From NCBI GenBank assembly GCA_028101095.1, contig JAOHKG010000006.1:1-48652 (forward strand): a stretch of DNA of 48,652 bases, read 5' to 3'. Under the pieces are notes generated by a model. That model had not been told where the DNA came from, ran no database searches, and saw nothing but the letters and a program-made list of their open reading frames with translations. The DNA comes from Fidelibacterota bacterium. GTDB taxonomy: Bacteria; Fidelibacterota; Marinisomatia; Marinisomatales; UBA1611. A program made the position numbers and the translations under genes. Shown piece by piece: positions 14,635 to 23,769 of this stretch (within the stretch, counting starts at the first letter, position 1; every line of letters begins with the position of its first letter).

Positions 14635-15891
14635 TTAAGTCTTTTTCTCTTTTTTTCTTGCTGCAGGAAATAAAATATTATTTAATATTAATCTATAGCC
14701 TGGTGAATTTCTATGTAATGATAAATCTGTGGTTGGATCTCCAACGAAATGTTGATAGTCTTCAGGGTCGTGACCGCCGTAATATGTAAACGTTCCATTG
14801 CCAAAATTCCCATGTAAATATTTAACTTGTTCGGATGCCGGGTCATTGCCTAAGATAACAATATGACTCTTTATTTTATCTTTTTTAAACCCTGTTGTTT
14901 GCCCCATGAATCCTCGAATGATGGAAACATGATTCTGTGTTAACATAGTTGGTATAGGGTCATACTTAGCAGAAAACTCAAACAATGTAAAATAATCAGC
15001 CTTTGCACCTCGAGTAATTGGATTATTACTTGGGGGATAATCAATATCTGAAAATTCATAAACCATAGGGTCTGAGATTAAACTAAAATTAGAAAATGCC
15101 AATGTTTGTGTAAAATCTAATTTTTTTTGAATATGAGGATCAATTTTAGTACCATCAAAAACTGAATGAACGCCATCAACATTTCCCATAGCTAAGGCAA
15201 TATCATAAGAATCTGTAGCAGAACACATTGCAAATAAAAAGCCGCCACTACCAACATAATTTTTTATCCTTCGTGCAATTCCCTTTTTTTGTTCATGGAC
15301 ACTAGAATACCCAAGTTTAGTTGCAACTTGTTCAAATTGGACTTTTTGTTCTTTATACCATTGTGAATTTCTATGACTTTTGTAAAATTTTCCAAACTGA
15401 CCAGTAAAGTCTTCGTGATGAAGGTGCAGCCAATCATATTTTTTAAGTTCACCAAGATGAACTTCTTCATCCCAAAGAGTTTCATATTCCACCTCAGCAT
15501 ATGTTAGTGCTAAGGTGACAGCGTCATCCCAAGGTTGTTTATTCGGGGGGGTATATATTGCAATATTTGGCTTTTTTTCTAATAATGTGATATCCATGTT
15601 ATTTTGATCAATCATAGAATAAATTTCGAGAAGTACCCTGGAATCAATAGAATTAAATGTAACACCTTTAATTTTACAATCAGTTTCAATAAATGAATAG
15701 GAATCAACTAAGAATGCCCCACCTTTATAATTAAGTAGCCACTCAACGTTGATGTTTTTATCTAAAATTTTATAGACAACACCGTAAGCTTTTAAATGAT
15801 TGTTTTGAGATTGATCCATTGGGATAATGATTTTTTGAGCAAAAATAAAACTTGTGAATATAAATAAAGCAGAGAATTTTGATAATCTCAT
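14635..15891 (-). CDS. Secreted protein of unknown function (relatives may be called 'asparagine synthetase B'); possible GATase-like fold
   Basis: Signal peptide MRLSKFSALFIFTSFIFA|Q; QKIIIPMDQSQNNHLKAYGVVYKILDKNINVEWLLNYKGGAFLVDSY; nucleophile-elbow-like GGFLFAMCSATDSYDIA; lacks SGG-D-S ATP-PPase motif and N-terminal Cys. Confidence 0.6.
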   Translation of the reverse strand: MRLSKFSALFIFTSFIFAQKIIIPMDQSQNNHLKAYGVVYKILDKNINVEWLLNYKGGAFLVDSYSFIETDCKIKGVTFNSIDSRVLLEIYSMIDQNNMDITLLEKKPNIAIYTPPNKQPWDDAVTLALTYAEVEYETLWDEEVHLGELKKYDWLHLHHEDFTGQFGKFYKSHRNSQWYKEQKVQFEQVATKLGYSSVHEQKKGIARRIKNYVGSGGFLFAMCSATDSYDIALAMGNVDGVHSVFDGTKIDPHIQKKLDFTQTLAFSNFSLISDPMVYEFSDIDYPPSNNPITRGAKADYFTLFEFSAKYDPIPTMLTQNHVSIIRGFMGQTTGFKKDKIKSHIVILGNDPASEQVKYLHGNFGNGTFTYYGGHDPEDYQHFVGDPTTDLSLHRNSPGYRLILNNILFPAARKKEKKT

Positions 15892-17750
15892 ATGTTTTTC
15901 CCTTGGTTAATTTTTCTGACATGATATCTTACTGGTTCAAAATGTACTGACTGTGGAAAATCATTAATTATTTTCATGTATCTTTTCAGAGCCTCATCAA
16001 TATTTGAAAGTTTAAGTTCATATATATGAGCCGAAAGTATTATTCCTCGATCTTCAAACTCTGTGTTTTTAAGATTTGATGCAAAGCGTAGTGATTCTTC
16101 AAAGTTGTTTATTTTATAATTCAACAAACTTATTCTAAGAATCGCCAGAGGAGCAATCTTTGATTGTGGGTAGTTATTAATTAAATAAGTTAATTCATTT
16201 ATGGCATCACCTGTTTTTTTCTGTCGTATCAAAAACTCAGATTTCAAAAAATGTTGGGTCGAAGATTTATTATTTTCATCGTCTAAATTATATTTATTAA
16301 GAATTGTTTTTAGTTCTATTAAATCATTAAACAATAAACTTTTGGGTCCAATATCGGCTAAGATAGGATCAATTAAACTTAATACATCATTGGGGTTTTT
16401 AGTGAAAAGGTCAGTCAAAATAACTCGCTCCTGTATTTCACTAGAAAGAGTTTTATTCTCAGAATTTAAAAGGATTTTTTTAGCCTCTTTAGGGTTTCCT
16501 TTAGCTATATAAGTATCTGCTATTCGAAGCTTGATCGAGCTAGTTAGAGATTTTTTATTACTGGATTTTAGTGCCATTTTGTAGAGTTGAAGAGCCTTAT
16601 CAAAGTCATGTAATATTCTAAATTGAACTTCACCTAGCCTATAATAAACCTCTGTCAGAAGAGCCGGATTTTTTATAGAAGTTGTTAAAGAATCATATAT
16701 TGAGAGACTCGCTTTTAGGTTTTCTATTGAAATAGAATTATTTGAAGCGAAAGGGTCTTCAAAAAAGATATTATTATCATAAAAAAAAGAAATTAAAAAT
16801 TTATCATTAAATGGTAGTATTTGGTCTTCAAATGTTTTCGCGAGTCCGAGTAAAGCTTTTTCGGCTATTTTGGAATTAATATTTTTATTTAAAATAAAAT
16901 TATATGCATATGCCGCATGCTGAAATTGCTTCTCTCTATTTAAACTATTCGCAAATTTTAGCCAACTTTCCAAATCTCTATCTTCTGAAGAAGTCCAAGC
17001 TTCTTTAGTCTGAATTGCAAGAAGATACTCTTGCTGTTTAAAATAAAAATCACATAGTATGTTTAATATTCTCCTTGGTTTTTTTTCAGAGAAAAAAATT
17101 AATTTAGACTTAATAATATTAACGGCCTCTTTCTCATCACTCATTTGAAGTATTCGTCTTTCGATTAAGTTTGATCTTTTTTCTTCGTTTAATAGATATA
17201 GCATGAACTGATTCATTGCTGATTCATAATCTTTTTTCAGCTGATAATAAAGTCCGGCTTCATAAGCTAAAAAAGAATCTCCAAATTTGTTTCTTCCTCT
17301 ACTTAAGATAGATATAAAATCGTTTTCGCTACCATATTTCGTCAAGAGAGTAGTGAGTTGGCGATAATATGATTTATTATTAAATCTTTGTAAGCCAATA
17401 ATCTGTATTTTTTCAGACTCTTCTTTTTGTCCATTCAAAAAATAAAACTCAACAAGATCTAAATTTATTGAAATATTATCAGGGTTTTTAGTGGCGTGCT
17501 CTTTTAAAAACTGTATTCCTTCACTATATAATTGATTGCTTTTAAACAAATTTTTCAAACTATTGAGTGTTTGATAGTGATCAGGTCTTCTTTCTAATAT
17601 TCCTTTATATACTGAAATAGCTGCATCTATTTCCCCCTGTCTCTCAAGCATGCTTGCAGTCCTAAGAGTTCCATTAAAAGAAGACTGACTTTGAGATGAT
17701 AAAAGAGCACCAAATGCAAAATAATATAAAAATAAAACTTTAATTTTCAT
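15888..17750 (-). CDS. Secreted/periplasmic TPR repeat protein
   Basis: Signal peptide MKIKVLFLYYFAFGALLSS|Q; repeated TPR-like units (GEIDAAISVYKGILERRPDHYQTLNSL...); overlaps both neighbours. Confidence 0.85.
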   Translation of the reverse strand: MKIKVLFLYYFAFGALLSSQSQSSFNGTLRTASMLERQGEIDAAISVYKGILERRPDHYQTLNSLKNLFKSNQLYSEGIQFLKEHATKNPDNISINLDLVEFYFLNGQKEESEKIQIIGLQRFNNKSYYRQLTTLLTKYGSENDFISILSRGRNKFGDSFLAYEAGLYYQLKKDYESAMNQFMLYLLNEEKRSNLIERRILQMSDEKEAVNIIKSKLIFFSEKKPRRILNILCDFYFKQQEYLLAIQTKEAWTSSEDRDLESWLKFANSLNREKQFQHAAYAYNFILNKNINSKIAEKALLGLAKTFEDQILPFNDKFLISFFYDNNIFFEDPFASNNSISIENLKASLSIYDSLTTSIKNPALLTEVYYRLGEVQFRILHDFDKALQLYKMALKSSNKKSLTSSIKLRIADTYIAKGNPKEAKKILLNSENKTLSSEIQERVILTDLFTKNPNDVLSLIDPILADIGPKSLLFNDLIELKTILNKYNLDDENNKSSTQHFLKSEFLIRQKKTGDAINELTYLINNYPQSKIAPLAILRISLLNYKINNFEESLRFASNLKNTEFEDRGIILSAHIYELKLSNIDEALKRYMKIINDFPQSVHFEPVRYHVRKINQGKNI

Positions 17751-20700
17751 TATCTAAATCAGTTTTTGTTAATGAATTAAAATAGCGTTTAATCATTCCT
17801 TGATATTGTTTTGAATAACCAGCCTTAATAGCATTATTTAGCGCTTTTAAGGTCAAATCTTCTCGTTGCCCTTTTTCAATGGGGAGTCCACTCGGTCCAT
17901 CAAAGATATTTCCGCTATTTGCAGAAAAGGATTTCCTTTCTTCTTTTTCTCCTCGCTGTGTCATTGATGTTTTACTATCGAGCATTCTAGTTAAAATTTT
18001 CTGTTGTCTTTTATGAGTTTGTTTTTTAAAGTCATTTTTTTCTAAATCATCAATTACTTTATCCATTTCTTGAGCGATTCCATCAAGATCACCTAATTTA
18101 TTTCCGCCAGAGGCATCCATCTCTTTCATTAACTGCTCTAAGGATTTTTTAACGGATTTCTGCCCAGATAACATTTCTTGCAACATCTGTTGTTTTGCGG
18201 CAGCAGCCATCTGGCCTAAAGTTAATTGATCCGATTTATTGTTTAAGCCTTGTTGCTTACCAGCCATTTCTTCCATCATTTTTAAAAGTTGCTCATAACC
18301 ACTTGCAGACCCAGACTTTTGCATATCTTGCATGTTATTATATAGCTCTATTGCTATTTGGTTCAGTCCTTCCATTGCTATCATCTGATTATTTTTAGCT
18401 TCGGGAATATTCCGATCAGCAAGTTTTGTTTTTGCTAAATCCATACTAGAACTAGCTTTCCCTATTCCTCTTCCAATAGCTGGAGTTATAGCAAAAGTTT
18501 CTTTTGATAAGTTTATCATTTTACTTGTTACAGACCTTAATTGATCTTGGATTAATTGTTGTTGAGAAGCAAAAAATTTAATTCTTGGAGAGCGACTAGT
18601 AATATTTTTCAAGGCATTATTTAAATATTCTTCTTTAGCTGACAAGTACAGAATATCTTGAATTATTTCTTCAAATTTTTCTGTCATTTCATTGAGTGAT
18701 TGATTTTGAAATTTTTCTTGTGCAGATGTGATTTTTTCAATCATTTTTTTCATATTTTCAATTGATTTCTGACTGCTGGCTTGAGCTGAATTTAATTTTC
18801 GGTTTGAAATATTATTTTCAGTTTCTTCAAGTGATTGGTTAATACTTTCAACAAGTTCGCTTTCAGATAGCTCTAATAAATCTTCAGAAACTTTTTCGTT
18901 TGATGGTTTAATTAAATCAGCTGTTTCTTCAAGAAGCGATTGAATATTTTCAAACTCATTTAATATCCCTTGCTCTTCAATTGCTAACCTCTGATTATTG
19001 TAATTTGTATTTTCATTTTGAACTAGCTCTTCATCTAAGGACTCTTGTTGCTTTGTCAGCTTTTCCATTCGGTTTCTAAGTTCGTCAAATTTTTGTTCCA
19101 TTTGAATTTGTTTAAAAATTTCAAGGTACCTTTCAAGCTCCTTTTCAATTTGGTCCATATTCTTTGTTAATTCACTAAGTGATTCTTCAATAGAATCCAT
19201 ATCCATATTATCCAATGCTTCTTCTAATTCTGAAATATTTTTTAACATATCTTTTGGAACAATGTCATTTATTAAGTTAGACAGTTCTTCAAATTTATTG
19301 AGTAAATCTGACGAAAAAAGTTTATGTTTATCTGCTTGCTCTTTCATCGCATCTATTGCCCTAGATAGGTCTTCCAATTTTTTTATTTCATTTTTTGCTT
19401 CTTCTATAGAGTTTTTAACCGATTTCTGTTGCTCCCAATCGAGTTCTTCAGTTTTTAACGCTTTCATTTCAAGAAGTTCAAACTGATCTTTTAGTTTCTC
19501 CATCTCTTCAACTTCTTTAGAAAGACTTTCTATAAAGTCATTTTCAGCAATTTCTGCTTTTTCATACAGACTTTCTAGAGAAGGAACTTTTGCGATGAAA
19601 GTTGAAGAAATAGTTTTTTTAGGACCAGAAATGACATCATTATCTGTTAGTTCAATATGAAAATGTATTTCATCATCAGGCATTAGAAAGAGGTCTCCAA
19701 GGTCCCAAAGGTATGAGATGTTTTGTGCAATAGAATCTTTTTCAATCCCAGGAATAGCCATCATTGATACATATGGGTCTAATTTTAAAATAGAGGGTTT
19801 TATAATTTCATATGTAATCTGAAGATTTGTAAACCCATAATCATCTTGAATATTTAGTTGGAGTGGAATACTTTGATCATCTCCAAGTTCAATAAAAGAT
19901 GGTGGTTGTAAAACTACTAATGTTGGCATGAAATCAGGTATTAATTCGATACTATATATTATAGGGTCTTTATTTGTTATGCCTCTAGCATCTACAAGGT
20001 TAACAGAAAAAGTAGTTTGTTCTTGAACAATGTGATATCCCGAAGCAGCTTTGTAGTTCGATTCTAAAATGGATTCCTTTTCGTCCAACAAGAGATATGC
20101 TTTTTTAAGGTTTCTGTTTGCTTTGATTTCCATTTGGATACGAGATCCTTTTAATCCTTGGATTACTGCATTGTTTCCTTCCTGAATTAAAGCTGGTAAC
20201 TTTGAATATTTTGGAGGTATCAATGTAATTTTAAATTTTTCTAATGTAGGACGATCGGTAACAAAAATAGTATCAAGTTCTGATGCTACTTTTTCCCATG
20301 ATTGCCAAAAATATTTTGCTTTAACTTCGGCTTGGTAAGAATAATCCTGATACAATTCAGGTAATAAAAAAGAATAAACGCCCTCTTCATTTAAAACGCT
20401 ATTAAATGATAATTTAAGTGAATCTCTTTTTTTTGTCGCAATTTGAATTGGTATTAAATTCAATTTTACAGTATCAGGGATTAATAGACTCGATGAAATT
20501 TCAATGTTTACTTTTTCTCCTCCTAAAATATGTATATCATTTGTTTTACTAGAAAGAGTAAATGGTTTTGGAGCTAAGAAATTAGTTAATGGGTGTTTCC
20601 ATCTAAAAAATGACTCAGCGGATTGGTTATAGTTGAGAGAGAAGAATGAAATCATTACTACCCAAAGAACCAAAATAGATTTTTTAAGATAATTATATTT

Positions 20701-21147
20701 TTCTGTTTGATTACTTATGTGAGTCTTTGAATTCTTGATTTTTGATAAAATTGTTTCTGTGAAAGCTTTAGCTAAATCGTTCGATTCATTCTTATTTAAT
20801 CCGGATTCTAATTGTAATGCATTAAGCACTGTATCGGGCTTTTTTGGGAATGTCAGACTTCCAAGATCTTTTGCAATAGTTTCTAGTTTATATCGTTTTA
20901 TTTTATTTTTTTTCCCTCTAATTGTCTCCGCAATCGCAAACGTTAAAAAAGATATCAAAAACAATAAAAATATTATTAAGCATAAAGTCTTTGTATTTAC
21001 AGAAAAATAAAATATTGATTCCAGTATGAGAGAAAGAAAAAATAAAAGCGAGGTGAAAAAGGTAAGCCATTGGAAAAGAGTGATGAGCCTTTTTTTGATT
21101 AAAAAAGTCTGAGCATCATTGATCTTTTTTTTAATCTTCATTTTCAC
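17740..21147 (-). CDS. Large membrane-anchored coiled-coil protein, DUF4175-like
   Basis: Two N-terminal TM segments, Ig-like central region, long Glu/Lys/Gln-rich coiled coil, C-terminal NIFDGPSGLPIEKGQREDLTLKALNNAIKAGYSKQYQGMIKRYFNSLTK. Confidence 0.65.
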   Translation of the reverse strand: MKMKIKKKINDAQTFLIKKRLITLFQWLTFFTSLLFFLSLILESIFYFSVNTKTLCLIIFLLFLISFLTFAIAETIRGKKNKIKRYKLETIAKDLGSLTFPKKPDTVLNALQLESGLNKNESNDLAKAFTETILSKIKNSKTHISNQTEKYNYLKKSILVLWVVMISFFSLNYNQSAESFFRWKHPLTNFLAPKPFTLSSKTNDIHILGGEKVNIEISSSLLIPDTVKLNLIPIQIATKKRDSLKLSFNSVLNEEGVYSFLLPELYQDYSYQAEVKAKYFWQSWEKVASELDTIFVTDRPTLEKFKITLIPPKYSKLPALIQEGNNAVIQGLKGSRIQMEIKANRNLKKAYLLLDEKESILESNYKAASGYHIVQEQTTFSVNLVDARGITNKDPIIYSIELIPDFMPTLVVLQPPSFIELGDDQSIPLQLNIQDDYGFTNLQITYEIIKPSILKLDPYVSMMAIPGIEKDSIAQNISYLWDLGDLFLMPDDEIHFHIELTDNDVISGPKKTISSTFIAKVPSLESLYEKAEIAENDFIESLSKEVEEMEKLKDQFELLEMKALKTEELDWEQQKSVKNSIEEAKNEIKKLEDLSRAIDAMKEQADKHKLFSSDLLNKFEELSNLINDIVPKDMLKNISELEEALDNMDMDSIEESLSELTKNMDQIEKELERYLEIFKQIQMEQKFDELRNRMEKLTKQQESLDEELVQNENTNYNNQRLAIEEQGILNEFENIQSLLEETADLIKPSNEKVSEDLLELSESELVESINQSLEETENNISNRKLNSAQASSQKSIENMKKMIEKITSAQEKFQNQSLNEMTEKFEEIIQDILYLSAKEEYLNNALKNITSRSPRIKFFASQQQLIQDQLRSVTSKMINLSKETFAITPAIGRGIGKASSSMDLAKTKLADRNIPEAKNNQMIAMEGLNQIAIELYNNMQDMQKSGSASGYEQLLKMMEEMAGKQQGLNNKSDQLTLGQMAAAAKQQMLQEMLSGQKSVKKSLEQLMKEMDASGGNKLGDLDGIAQEMDKVIDDLEKNDFKKQTHKRQQKILTRMLDSKTSMTQRGEKEERKSFSANSGNIFDGPSGLPIEKGQREDLTLKALNNAIKAGYSKQYQGMIKRYFNSLTKTDLDNEN

Positions 21148-21824
21148 TGTATAAGGGAAAAATAAATAATATTTACACCCATTTTTAATGCAGATTCTCT
21201 CAGCGTTAGAGGGTCATTATGCACACTTGCATCCTCCCAACCATCTCCTAAATCAGATTCATATGTGTACAAAACTAAAATTTTTTCACCTTCAAACAAC
21301 GCAAGTGCTTGAGGGGGTTTCTTATCGTGCTCATGTATTTTAGGAAGTCCATTTTCAAATTTATAATATGAATTAAAAATTGCATGGTCTTTTGGCAATT
21401 GTACGAAATCTTTATTTGGAAAGACTTTTTTTATTTCTCTTCTAAAAGACTCATCCATACCATAATTATCATCTGCATGTAAAAAAGAACCACTCATTAG
21501 AGCTGACCTTAGTGAGATTACTTCATCATCACTTAGCTTAATGTTTCCATGCCCAGTCATGTACAGAAATGGATGTTGTGAAATATTATCATCTGTTAGC
21601 TTTATTTGAAATTCCTTTCGGTGGGCTGAAACAGGAGTGTTCGCTGTTAAATAATCTAAGAGATTTGGTATGCTACTTGGGTCACTGTACCAATCTCCTC
21701 CTCCATTATAGTGTATCCTTGCAATAGAAAATGTCTGAGATTTTGATATATTTAGGCAGCAAGCTAGTGTAATTAAAAATATTATTTTATTGTACATATA
21801 ATTATAATGTAAGAATCGATTCAA
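21144..21824 (-). CDS. DUF4159 domain-containing secreted protein
   Basis: FSIARIHYNGGGDWYSDPSSIPNLLDYL...PFLYMTGHGNIKLSDDEVISLRSALMSGSFLHADDNYG; likely start at internal Met, 21797 (MYNKIIFLITLACCLNISKS|Q). Confidence 0.82.
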   Translation of the reverse strand: MNRFLHYNYMYNKIIFLITLACCLNISKSQTFSIARIHYNGGGDWYSDPSSIPNLLDYLTANTPVSAHRKEFQIKLTDDNISQHPFLYMTGHGNIKLSDDEVISLRSALMSGSFLHADDNYGMDESFRREIKKVFPNKDFVQLPKDHAIFNSYYKFENGLPKIHEHDKKPPQALALFEGEKILVLYTYESDLGDGWEDASVHNDPLTLRESALKMGVNIIYFSLIQ

Positions 21825-21885: not shown

Positions 21886-23769
21886 ATGAAATATTACAAT
21901 TTTAAGACCAAGATGAATAAAACAAAAAATATCATAATTATCATAATGGTGGCCTTTACCTCTTATTATAGTGCACAAGAAATTAATAAAGATGATAAAA
22001 AAAAGTATTTTTTTGGTTTATTAAAATTTGACAATAAGTCTCCTTATGAAGATGGTTTTTGGATAAATAAATGGTTTTATTCTCGAGAATTTGCTGCACC
22101 GATAAATTTTATGCCAATTGAGATAAGGTACGGGGTTGGAGCGACGGGTAAATCAAAAGGGAGTGTTTATAGCTTTAATCCTGATTCATTCAAAGATGAT
22201 CCTGGGAAAATTCGATATGACTCGGATGTCACGGCAATTAGTCAAGAGACAAAAAATATTTGGGGCTCATCTTTAGAAATTGACGTTGGACTTTTGAATA
22301 TTCCTTATTATTTGGTTGGGACAAGCTGGTTAAATGTTATGACGGGTGTAACCTACAGAACAAGCACTCTTTTCTCACCAGCAAAAGTTCCTCATGGAGA
22401 TTGGACCAATACTAATCCAAGTTGGAGTGATACAGCTTTCTTCTCACCAAAAGTAACAGAATATTTGGCCACAACTCATTTTCAATATCAACCCTTCAAT
22501 AATTGGTATTTAAATTTTCGATATTCTTATGGATTGGCTTCTGCATTATTTTACACTCTCGATAAAGAAGAGTGGGACGATAATTTATCAGGTTCAGGAA
22601 CTTCTTCAGCTGGTTCATTGGGGATACGTTTTATTCTTGACCCCGGAAAAAAAAGTAGATTCTCAGTAGGGCTTGATTTTCGCTATTCATACTCTAAAAT
22701 CCATACAATTAATGACCCTTTAGACAAAACCCCAATAAATAGGTTTGACTTGTCTAATTATGGTCTTTATTTGACACTTTCTTCATTTTATGGAGGTAAA
22801 AAAACAAGTGGAGATAAAGCAAAAACATACTATTATAGAAAAGATTATGTTGAGTCTCTTAATATCTTTAAAGGTTTCCTGTCTGATTATCCAACACATG
22901 CAAATCGGCATAGAGCTTTAGAGTATATCGTAGACTGTGAATATAAAATTCCCTATCAAATTTTAGAACAGGGCATTCTCTTGGAGAAAAAAGGTAAGAC
23001 TCAGAATGCGCTTGTGAAGTATCAATTTGCACTTTCTAAAGTAAAAACTGACACTGTCATAGTACCTATTCTTAATAAAAGGATTAATCAAATAGCTCTT
23101 TTATGGATGATCGAGGCGGAAAAAAAATTAAGAGATGGCAATTATATTCAAGCTTATAATTTAGTAAAGCATGTTGCGGAATTTAGTATTGAAGGACAAA
23201 AAGAATTAAGAAGGTTCAAGTCTTGGGTATTGCTCGGCGAGGGGAAGAAGTATCAAGAATTTGGTTTTATTGGTAAGGCGATGGGGAAGTATGCAGAAGG
23301 ATTAGAATTAAATCGAGATTTGATATTTGAAGTTAATGCCCTGCAATATAGAGCAGGTATTCAAATGGCAAAGCTTGCACAAGAGGCGGACGAGTTTGAT
23401 GAGGTTCAGCTAGCTATTTATTCTTTAGAGTTTGCAAGAGAATTATCTGGTGGAATTGGTAATAAAAATGAAGAATTGCTTATCCAATTAAAAGAAAAGA
23501 TTAAATCTCTTGATGAATATAATTCTAGATTAATTATCAATAAGAAAATGGAAAGTGCTCGTTCAATTATACAAAAAGGCAAAGAAGAAAAATTAAAAGT
23601 TGGACAAACAATCCCTCAGGTTCAGAACCTTTTAGGGGAGCCGCACGAAAAAATTATTAGTAGAAATGGTCAAAATTTTAAAGAACAGTTATGGATCTAT
23701 TTCATGAATGAGAAATCATTACATTTAACATTTATAGACTTCATTCTTTTTAGAATTGAACAACTTTAA
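21886..23769 (+). CDS. Outer-membrane-like protein: barrel-like N-terminus, TPR region, BamE/SmpA-like C-terminus
   Basis: Likely start 21913 (MNKTKNIIIIIMVAFTSYYSA|Q); aromatic alternating strands, TPR helices from about residue 320, C-terminal LKVGQTIPQVQNLLGEPHEKIISRNGQNFKEQLWIYF. Confidence 0.65.
   Translation: MKYYNFKTKMNKTKNIIIIIMVAFTSYYSAQEINKDDKKKYFFGLLKFDNKSPYEDGFWINKWFYSREFAAPINFMPIEIRYGVGATGKSKGSVYSFNPDSFKDDPGKIRYDSDVTAISQETKNIWGSSLEIDVGLLNIPYYLVGTSWLNVMTGVTYRTSTLFSPAKVPHGDWTNTNPSWSDTAFFSPKVTEYLATTHFQYQPFNNWYLNFRYSYGLASALFYTLDKEEWDDNLSGSGTSSAGSLGIRFILDPGKKSRFSVGLDFRYSYSKIHTINDPLDKTPINRFDLSNYGLYLTLSSFYGGKKTSGDKAKTYYYRKDYVESLNIFKGFLSDYPTHANRHRALEYIVDCEYKIPYQILEQGILLEKKGKTQNALVKYQFALSKVKTDTVIVPILNKRINQIALLWMIEAEKKLRDGNYIQAYNLVKHVAEFSIEGQKELRRFKSWVLLGEGKKYQEFGFIGKAMGKYAEGLELNRDLIFEVNALQYRAGIQMAKLAQEADEFDEVQLAIYSLEFARELSGGIGNKNEELLIQLKEKIKSLDEYNSRLIINKKMESARSIIQKGKEEKLKVGQTIPQVQNLLGEPHEKIISRNGQNFKEQLWIYFMNEKSLHLTFIDFILFRIEQL

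Follow-up and report, generated by a model that had tools for sequence, protein, structure and literature searches.

A conserved four-gene envelope operon in Neomarinimicrobiota and its proposed relationship to a second MoxR-DUF58 pair

A compact operon with one membrane-bound and three exported products

We analyzed a 48,652-nucleotide stretch of DNA from a Fidelibacterota bacterium (assembly GCA_028101095.1, contig JAOHKG010000006.1, positions 1 to 48,652; hereafter, the window), focusing on four minus-strand open reading frames (ORFs) at positions 14635–21824. These encode a DUF4159 protein, a DUF4175-family protein, a tetratricopeptide repeat (TPR) protein, and a secreted protein of 418 amino acids. 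Named matches assign the window's phylum to Neomarinimicrobiota, and the genome assembly is 1.22 Mb and 60% complete. Our examination of the four genes covered ORFs, Pfam and NCBIfam assignments, hydropathy, and AlphaFold2 models.

The operon opens with the DUF4159 gene (21144–21824, minus strand), which begins at a TTG codon and encodes a 226-amino-acid protein of a glutamine amidotransferase (GATase)-like family with a signal-peptide-like N-terminus. On the same strand follow a predicted inner-membrane protein of 1135 amino acids belonging to the DUF4175 family (17740–21147, GTG start), an exported TPR protein of 620 amino acids (15888–17750; TPR families, E 1e-15), and, as the last gene, the secreted GATase1-like 418-amino-acid protein (14635–15891). 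Consecutive ORFs overlap by 4 (418-amino-acid/TPR), 11 (TPR/DUF4175), and 4 (DUF4175/DUF4159) nucleotides, and the ORF coordinates bear out the gene arrangement and products given in a preliminary description of this locus. The exact overlap between the DUF4175 and DUF4159 genes is uncertain and depends on start choice. An in-frame ATG lies nine codons downstream of the DUF4159 TTG, giving a protein of 217 amino acids (MYNKIIF...), and an ATG two codons past the DUF4175 GTG would turn the 4-nucleotide overlap into a 2-nucleotide gap; the genes stay packed either way.

Pfam identified DUF4159 (PF13709, E 9.8e-61) and DUF4175 (PF13779, E 4.1e-12) as an adjacent, translationally coupled pair. The 418-amino-acid protein matched no Pfam family above cut-off, no VWA or BatA family was found by Pfam among the four operon products, and none of the four reached the cut-off of an NCBIfam equivalog. 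Hydropathy together with sequence reading revealed signal-peptide-like N-terminal segments in three of the four products, and hydropathy placed hydrophobic segments at residues 21–52, 44–78, and 153–171 of the DUF4175 protein. The predicted products are thus a single membrane protein and three proteins that are exported. A promoter and terminator scan yielded no excess over shuffled sequence, and a viral scan added little.

Gene order indicates that the arrangement is not due to chance. All four are collinear on one strand in 33 of 40 loci sampled across the phylum, and gaps of 20 nucleotides or fewer separate them at the three junctions in 30/34, 32/35, and 25/35 of these loci. Because this order is kept, we conclude that the four genes are a genuine operon, one whose neighborhood is maintained in relatives far beyond the single genome in which it was first described. 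Among 199 phylum genomes, 93 of which we classed as good, the 418-amino-acid gene occurs in 159 (77 of the good ones) and DUF4159 in 173. The TPR protein is the fastest-evolving member, with 20–46% identity among orthologues. In families f23 and f17 (G123), the first genes stay together and the 418-amino-acid gene is located elsewhere.

Predicted folds and active sites

The 418-amino-acid protein was modeled with a predicted local distance difference test score (pLDDT) of 83 and a predicted template modeling score (pTM) of 0.86, and a Foldseek search with this model returned several class-I GATase folds in the PDB, in agreement with the earlier guess that the protein is GATase-like. In the model, Cys223 sits in the nucleophile elbow GGFLFAMCSATD (codon at 15223–15225, minus strand), between a strand (residues 218–222) and a helix (224–235), and it is invariant in 48 sequences from many phyla. 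In the same alignment, H374 is invariant and E377 nearly so within a GGHDPED motif that resembles the His-x-Glu of GATases; further invariant residues are H156, H158, H159, E160, D161, D375, and H381. An invariant HLHHEDFTGQ motif likely lies near the predicted site. As modeled, the protein has a class-I GATase-like fold with an invariant elbow Cys, and it is likely the enzyme of the set. The fold and the Cys between strand and helix are shared with GMP synthase subunit A (2a9v), SpuA, lin1909, and STM3548, a likeness drawn from the model; unlike these GATases, to which it is ~7–12% identical, the 418-amino-acid protein is secreted and carries an extra domain and the invariant HLHHEDFTGQ. Members of this family are often annotated "asparagine synthetase B."

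The DUF4159 protein has a PDB relative in Hoch_4089 (4i66, E 8e-14), a stand-alone, uncharacterized protein that is not named in the literature we searched. Across 17 sequences, G41–G43, D44, W45, H92, N94, D118, D119, H147, D194, and W196 are invariant, and the elbow position aligned to Cys223 is occupied by Asp (D118/D119), with no Cys at the elbow. Because of this Asp, DUF4159 is probably not a Cys enzyme. A profile alignment of the DUF4159 and 418-amino-acid families with hhalign matched the elbow region alone, with a probability of 15%, so a common origin of the two is no more than suggested.

For the DUF4175 protein, the AlphaFold2 model (pLDDT 76) comprises three transmembrane segments, tandem Ig-like beta domains at residues ~197–520, and a long helical region at ~524–1063. 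A fold search of the PDB with this protein matched generic Ig-like tandems.

Co-occurrence with a second MoxR-DUF58 pair

The DUF58 genes of the phylum fall into two classes, which we term type A (E ~1e-70 to 1e-86) and type B (E ~1e-41 to 1e-51). A MoxR gene adjoins both, and the type-A MoxR-DUF58 pair is of the bat kind. The preliminary description had remarked that no MoxR, DUF58, or VWA gene is adjacent to the operon and had suggested looking for such genes elsewhere in the genome. In this genome none adjoins the operon, and MoxR, DUF58, and BatA are found at other loci, with the type-A pair on contig C5 and the BatA gene on contig C49. What that description did not capture is that the type-B pair is tied to the operon and, in some phyla, physically joined to genes of these families.

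We searched the 199 phylum genomes with a type-B DUF58 profile and tabulated the result for the 93 good genomes. The operon and type B are both present in 79 and both absent from 11 (eight from family f2, two from f8, and G057), with the operon alone in two (G045 and G155) and type B alone in one (G058); Fisher's p is 1.5e-11 when related genomes are treated as independent. In G058, the 418-amino-acid gene sits at a contig start, and the absence of DUF4159 may reflect assembly loss. Twenty-one genomes were checked more closely. Five from f2 and f8, which are without the operon, have only type A, and the f16 genomes G143, G164, G181, G185, and G188 have the operon with type B only, lacking the bat-type pair. 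The type-B pair is phylogenetically tied to the operon. In a tree of MoxR-A and DUF58-A, f2 and f8 are not sisters, with weak support.

Family f2 (genus g12; genomes of 0.7–1.0 Mb, e.g., G006, G028, and G103) is a streamlined lineage of the window's order that has lost the operon and type-B MoxR-DUF58 and has mostly kept type A. We did not score weak DUF4159 matches in f2 genomes (E 1e-4 to 1e-16) as the operon because these genomes lack the 418-amino-acid gene.

Outside the phylum, we tested 17 genomes with the 418-amino-acid gene, drawn from KSB1, Latescibacterota, Gemmatimonadota, Kapabacteria, Ignavibacteria, Zixibacteria, Cloacimonadota, Bacteroidota, Electryonea, Stahlbacteria, and Krumholzibacteriota, and all 17 also have strong DUF4159 and type-B DUF58. 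Among 118 Bacteroidota, 83 have both the 418-amino-acid and DUF4159 genes, 34 have neither, and one (G290) has DUF4159 only; in no genome do the two genes lie within 10 kb. The four-gene order recurs in KSB1 (L117 and L125), and several Ignavibacteria keep the TPR-418 pair. MoxR/DUF58 are joined physically to these families at two loci only, a single gene run in Latescibacterota, DUF4175-TPR-418-(HEAT/PhyH)-MoxR-DUF58 (L127), and a paralogous cluster in KSB1, TPR-DUF4159-DUF4159-MoxR-DUF58-BatA/VWA-DUF4175 (L224).

Other apparent linkages were rejected on inspection. The large gene adjoining type-B DUF58 in Bacteroidota, suspected to be DUF4175, is DNA polymerase III alpha, and at L055 and L059, the genes of ~330 and 270 amino acids beside the 418-amino-acid gene look like an ABC-2 transporter set. 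Two ~300-amino-acid genes directly upstream of DUF4159 in family f18, suspected to be DUF58 and MoxR, read as a cation diffusion facilitator (CDF)-type metal exporter and a GGDEF response regulator. In Prolixibacter, the gene before the 418-amino-acid gene is DnaB helicase, and the surroundings in Zixibacteria and Cloacimonadota are housekeeping genes, so linkage there is uninformative.

Two observations concern DUF4159 at large. The Latescibacterota genome that carries locus L127 (G200) has eight DUF4159-type matches, most of them divergent, indicating an expanded family. Corynebacterium crudilactis plasmid pCRULAC1 (NZ_CP015623.1, 12061–12678; L184) carries a single, isolated DUF4159 gene with 45% identity to that of the window; it lies among insertion sequences and antibiotic-resistance genes of this Gram-positive plasmid and appears to be a captured fragment.

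A proposed split envelope module

These observations lead us to favor, with some confidence, a reading in which a MoxR/DUF58/DUF4159/DUF4175 module is split and the four genes make up its envelope half. On balance, our analysis makes it probable that the type-B MoxR-DUF58 pair and the operon together constitute a six-component module for cell-envelope maintenance; that the operon is not an isolated system is indicated by its phylogenetic tie to the type-B pair and by the joining of MoxR-DUF58 to the DUF families at L127 and L224. In the mechanism we propose, a MoxR-type AAA+ ATPase ring would be recruited by DUF58 as a VWA-like adaptor, the two forming a cytoplasmic pair encoded at a separate locus, and would engage the DUF4175 protein at its cytoplasmic or membrane face. 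The three transmembrane helices of DUF4175 would relay a signal or force through the inner membrane to the Ig-like domains and long helical region in the periplasm, which may hold or control a periplasmic assembly of the DUF4159, TPR (as scaffold), and 418-amino-acid proteins. With its intact Cys elbow, the 418-amino-acid protein would be the likely enzyme, alongside a GATase-like DUF4159 with an Asp elbow, and the output would be envelope or cell-wall integrity and cell shape. We infer the envelope role of the set, as well as the direction of signaling, complex formation, and enzymatic activity. More tentatively, at a little under even chances in our estimation, the set could represent an undescribed envelope system of the Fibrobacterota-Chlorobiota-Bacteroidota (FCB) superphylum, where a motor of MoxR and DUF58 in the cytoplasm governs, via DUF4175, a periplasmic GATase-like pair (the Cys 418-amino-acid protein and the Asp DUF4159) acting on a cell-wall or outer-membrane substrate; genomes would keep or lose this system as a whole even when its genes lie apart.

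Several of our results weigh against a split module. In the window's phylum, MoxR-B and DUF58-B do not adjoin the operon; the co-occurrence there rests on few loss events (f2, f8, and G057); and the window's own genome, 60% complete, yielded no type B, an absence that probably reflects incompleteness because type B is present in 15 of 17 other genomes of the same family. The 418-amino-acid gene is separate from the other three in f23, in parts of f17, and in Bacteroidota, the Bacteroidota counts are of genomes uncorrected for kinship, and the KSB1 cluster at L224 is a divergent paralogue without the 418-amino-acid gene. The full DUF4175 model, moreover, has a low pTM (0.37). One could accordingly picture the operon as a self-contained envelope complex, structural or enzymatic, that functions without a MoxR/DUF58 engine, with the type-B co-occurrence reflecting shared clade history, and the ability of DUF4159-DUF4175 and of TPR-418 each to persist together without a nearby MoxR fits this picture. 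We nevertheless consider it unlikely, given that the five f16 genomes retain type B alongside the operon after losing type A, the reverse of f2 and f8, that the components are joined in Latescibacterota and KSB1, and that the 418-amino-acid protein, DUF4159, and type-B DUF58 coincide in all 17 genomes outside the phylum.

A different function for the same module, maturing an exported enzyme or inserting metal into it in the manner of NorQ-NorD and other MoxR-VWA pairs, strikes us as less plausible still. It would have the HLHHED and GHDPED motifs bind metal, in keeping with the invariance of H156, H158, H159, E160, D161, H374, D375, and H381, and MoxR-VWA pairs are known to insert metals (PMC9976466 and PMC13036017). 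In f23 (L067, L068, and L070), the lone 418-amino-acid gene has zinc-type ABC transporter genes as neighbors, and in f18 (L062, L064, L066, and L069), the CDF exporter gene lies just upstream of DUF4159; both were assigned by reading the sequences. However, these metal-transport neighbors are lineage-specific, and a Cys-type GATase-like fold would itself call for His and acidic residues in catalysis. MoxR and DUF58 are, furthermore, cytoplasmic, whereas the 418-amino-acid protein, with its signal peptide, would have to be exported unfolded through Sec.

The bat (Bacteroides aerotolerance) operon comprises MoxR, DUF58, VWA, and TPR genes (PMC11834572) and resembles the present set in its MoxR-DUF58 logic, its TPR protein, and an envelope or stress role. 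That the module is merely a diverged bat operon serving aerotolerance or oxidative stress is very improbable, however, even with BatA_N-VWA joining DUF4159/DUF4175 at L224, as the window's operon has no BatA/BatB VWA gene and its genome already holds, at other loci, a bat-type MoxR-DUF58 pair (type A) and a BatA gene.

The module we favor also has a known relative. In Rhizobium leguminosarum, RL3499, a MoxR of the MRP subfamily, heads the operon RL3499–RL3502 (cmdA–cmdD; Vanderlinde 2011, cited in PMC5118466, PMC5700661, and PMC3893208), which has been tied to envelope integrity and cell morphology (PMC5700661 and PMC3893208). A separate R. leguminosarum TPR protein is linked to envelope function as well (Neudorf 2015, cited in PMC5700661). 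We take RL3500–RL3502 to encode a DUF58 protein together with membrane proteins resembling DUF4159 and DUF4175. The likeness is that of a MoxR-type module with an envelope role, which we propose for the present set by analogy with this operon; the difference is that RL3499–RL3502 are one operon, whereas MoxR/DUF58 occupy another locus in Neomarinimicrobiota and TPR and secreted Cys-GATase-like genes are in the operon. Of 14 control genomes, DUF4159 occurs in Caulobacter vibrioides alone, where it is accompanied by MoxR, DUF58, and BatA, a gene content consistent with a Cmd-type module (DUF58, DUF4159, DUF4175-like). In Acinetobacter baumannii, AdvA, a critical cell-division protein with two transmembrane helices, is annotated with a DUF4175 domain (PMC7481262); its likeness to the window's DUF4175 protein is by annotation only.

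A MoxR/DUF58 module with envelope partners is already a known kind, and the preliminary proposal of an undescribed multi-protein system is to that extent qualified, RL3499–RL3502 having been linked to the envelope before. What seems new, judged by the literature we searched, is the split arrangement, its joint retention across the superphylum, and the secreted GATase-like member that fits no family model; that literature, of 5.39 million papers, names DUF4159 nowhere and DUF4175 in a single paper. Near-universal in the window's phylum, the set occurs in most sampled Bacteroidota and in every other FCB phylum tested, and the co-occurrence of its unlinked genes names six proteins to study together. 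It would offer a way to learn the role of MoxR-DUF58 at the cell envelope, a long-open question, and the 418-amino-acid family would gain a plausible fold and a predicted active site.

Divergent from the operon, a plus-strand gene at 21886–23769 encodes a 627-amino-acid secreted protein with a weakly BamE-like C-terminus; it is kept as a neighbor in many relatives of the same order.

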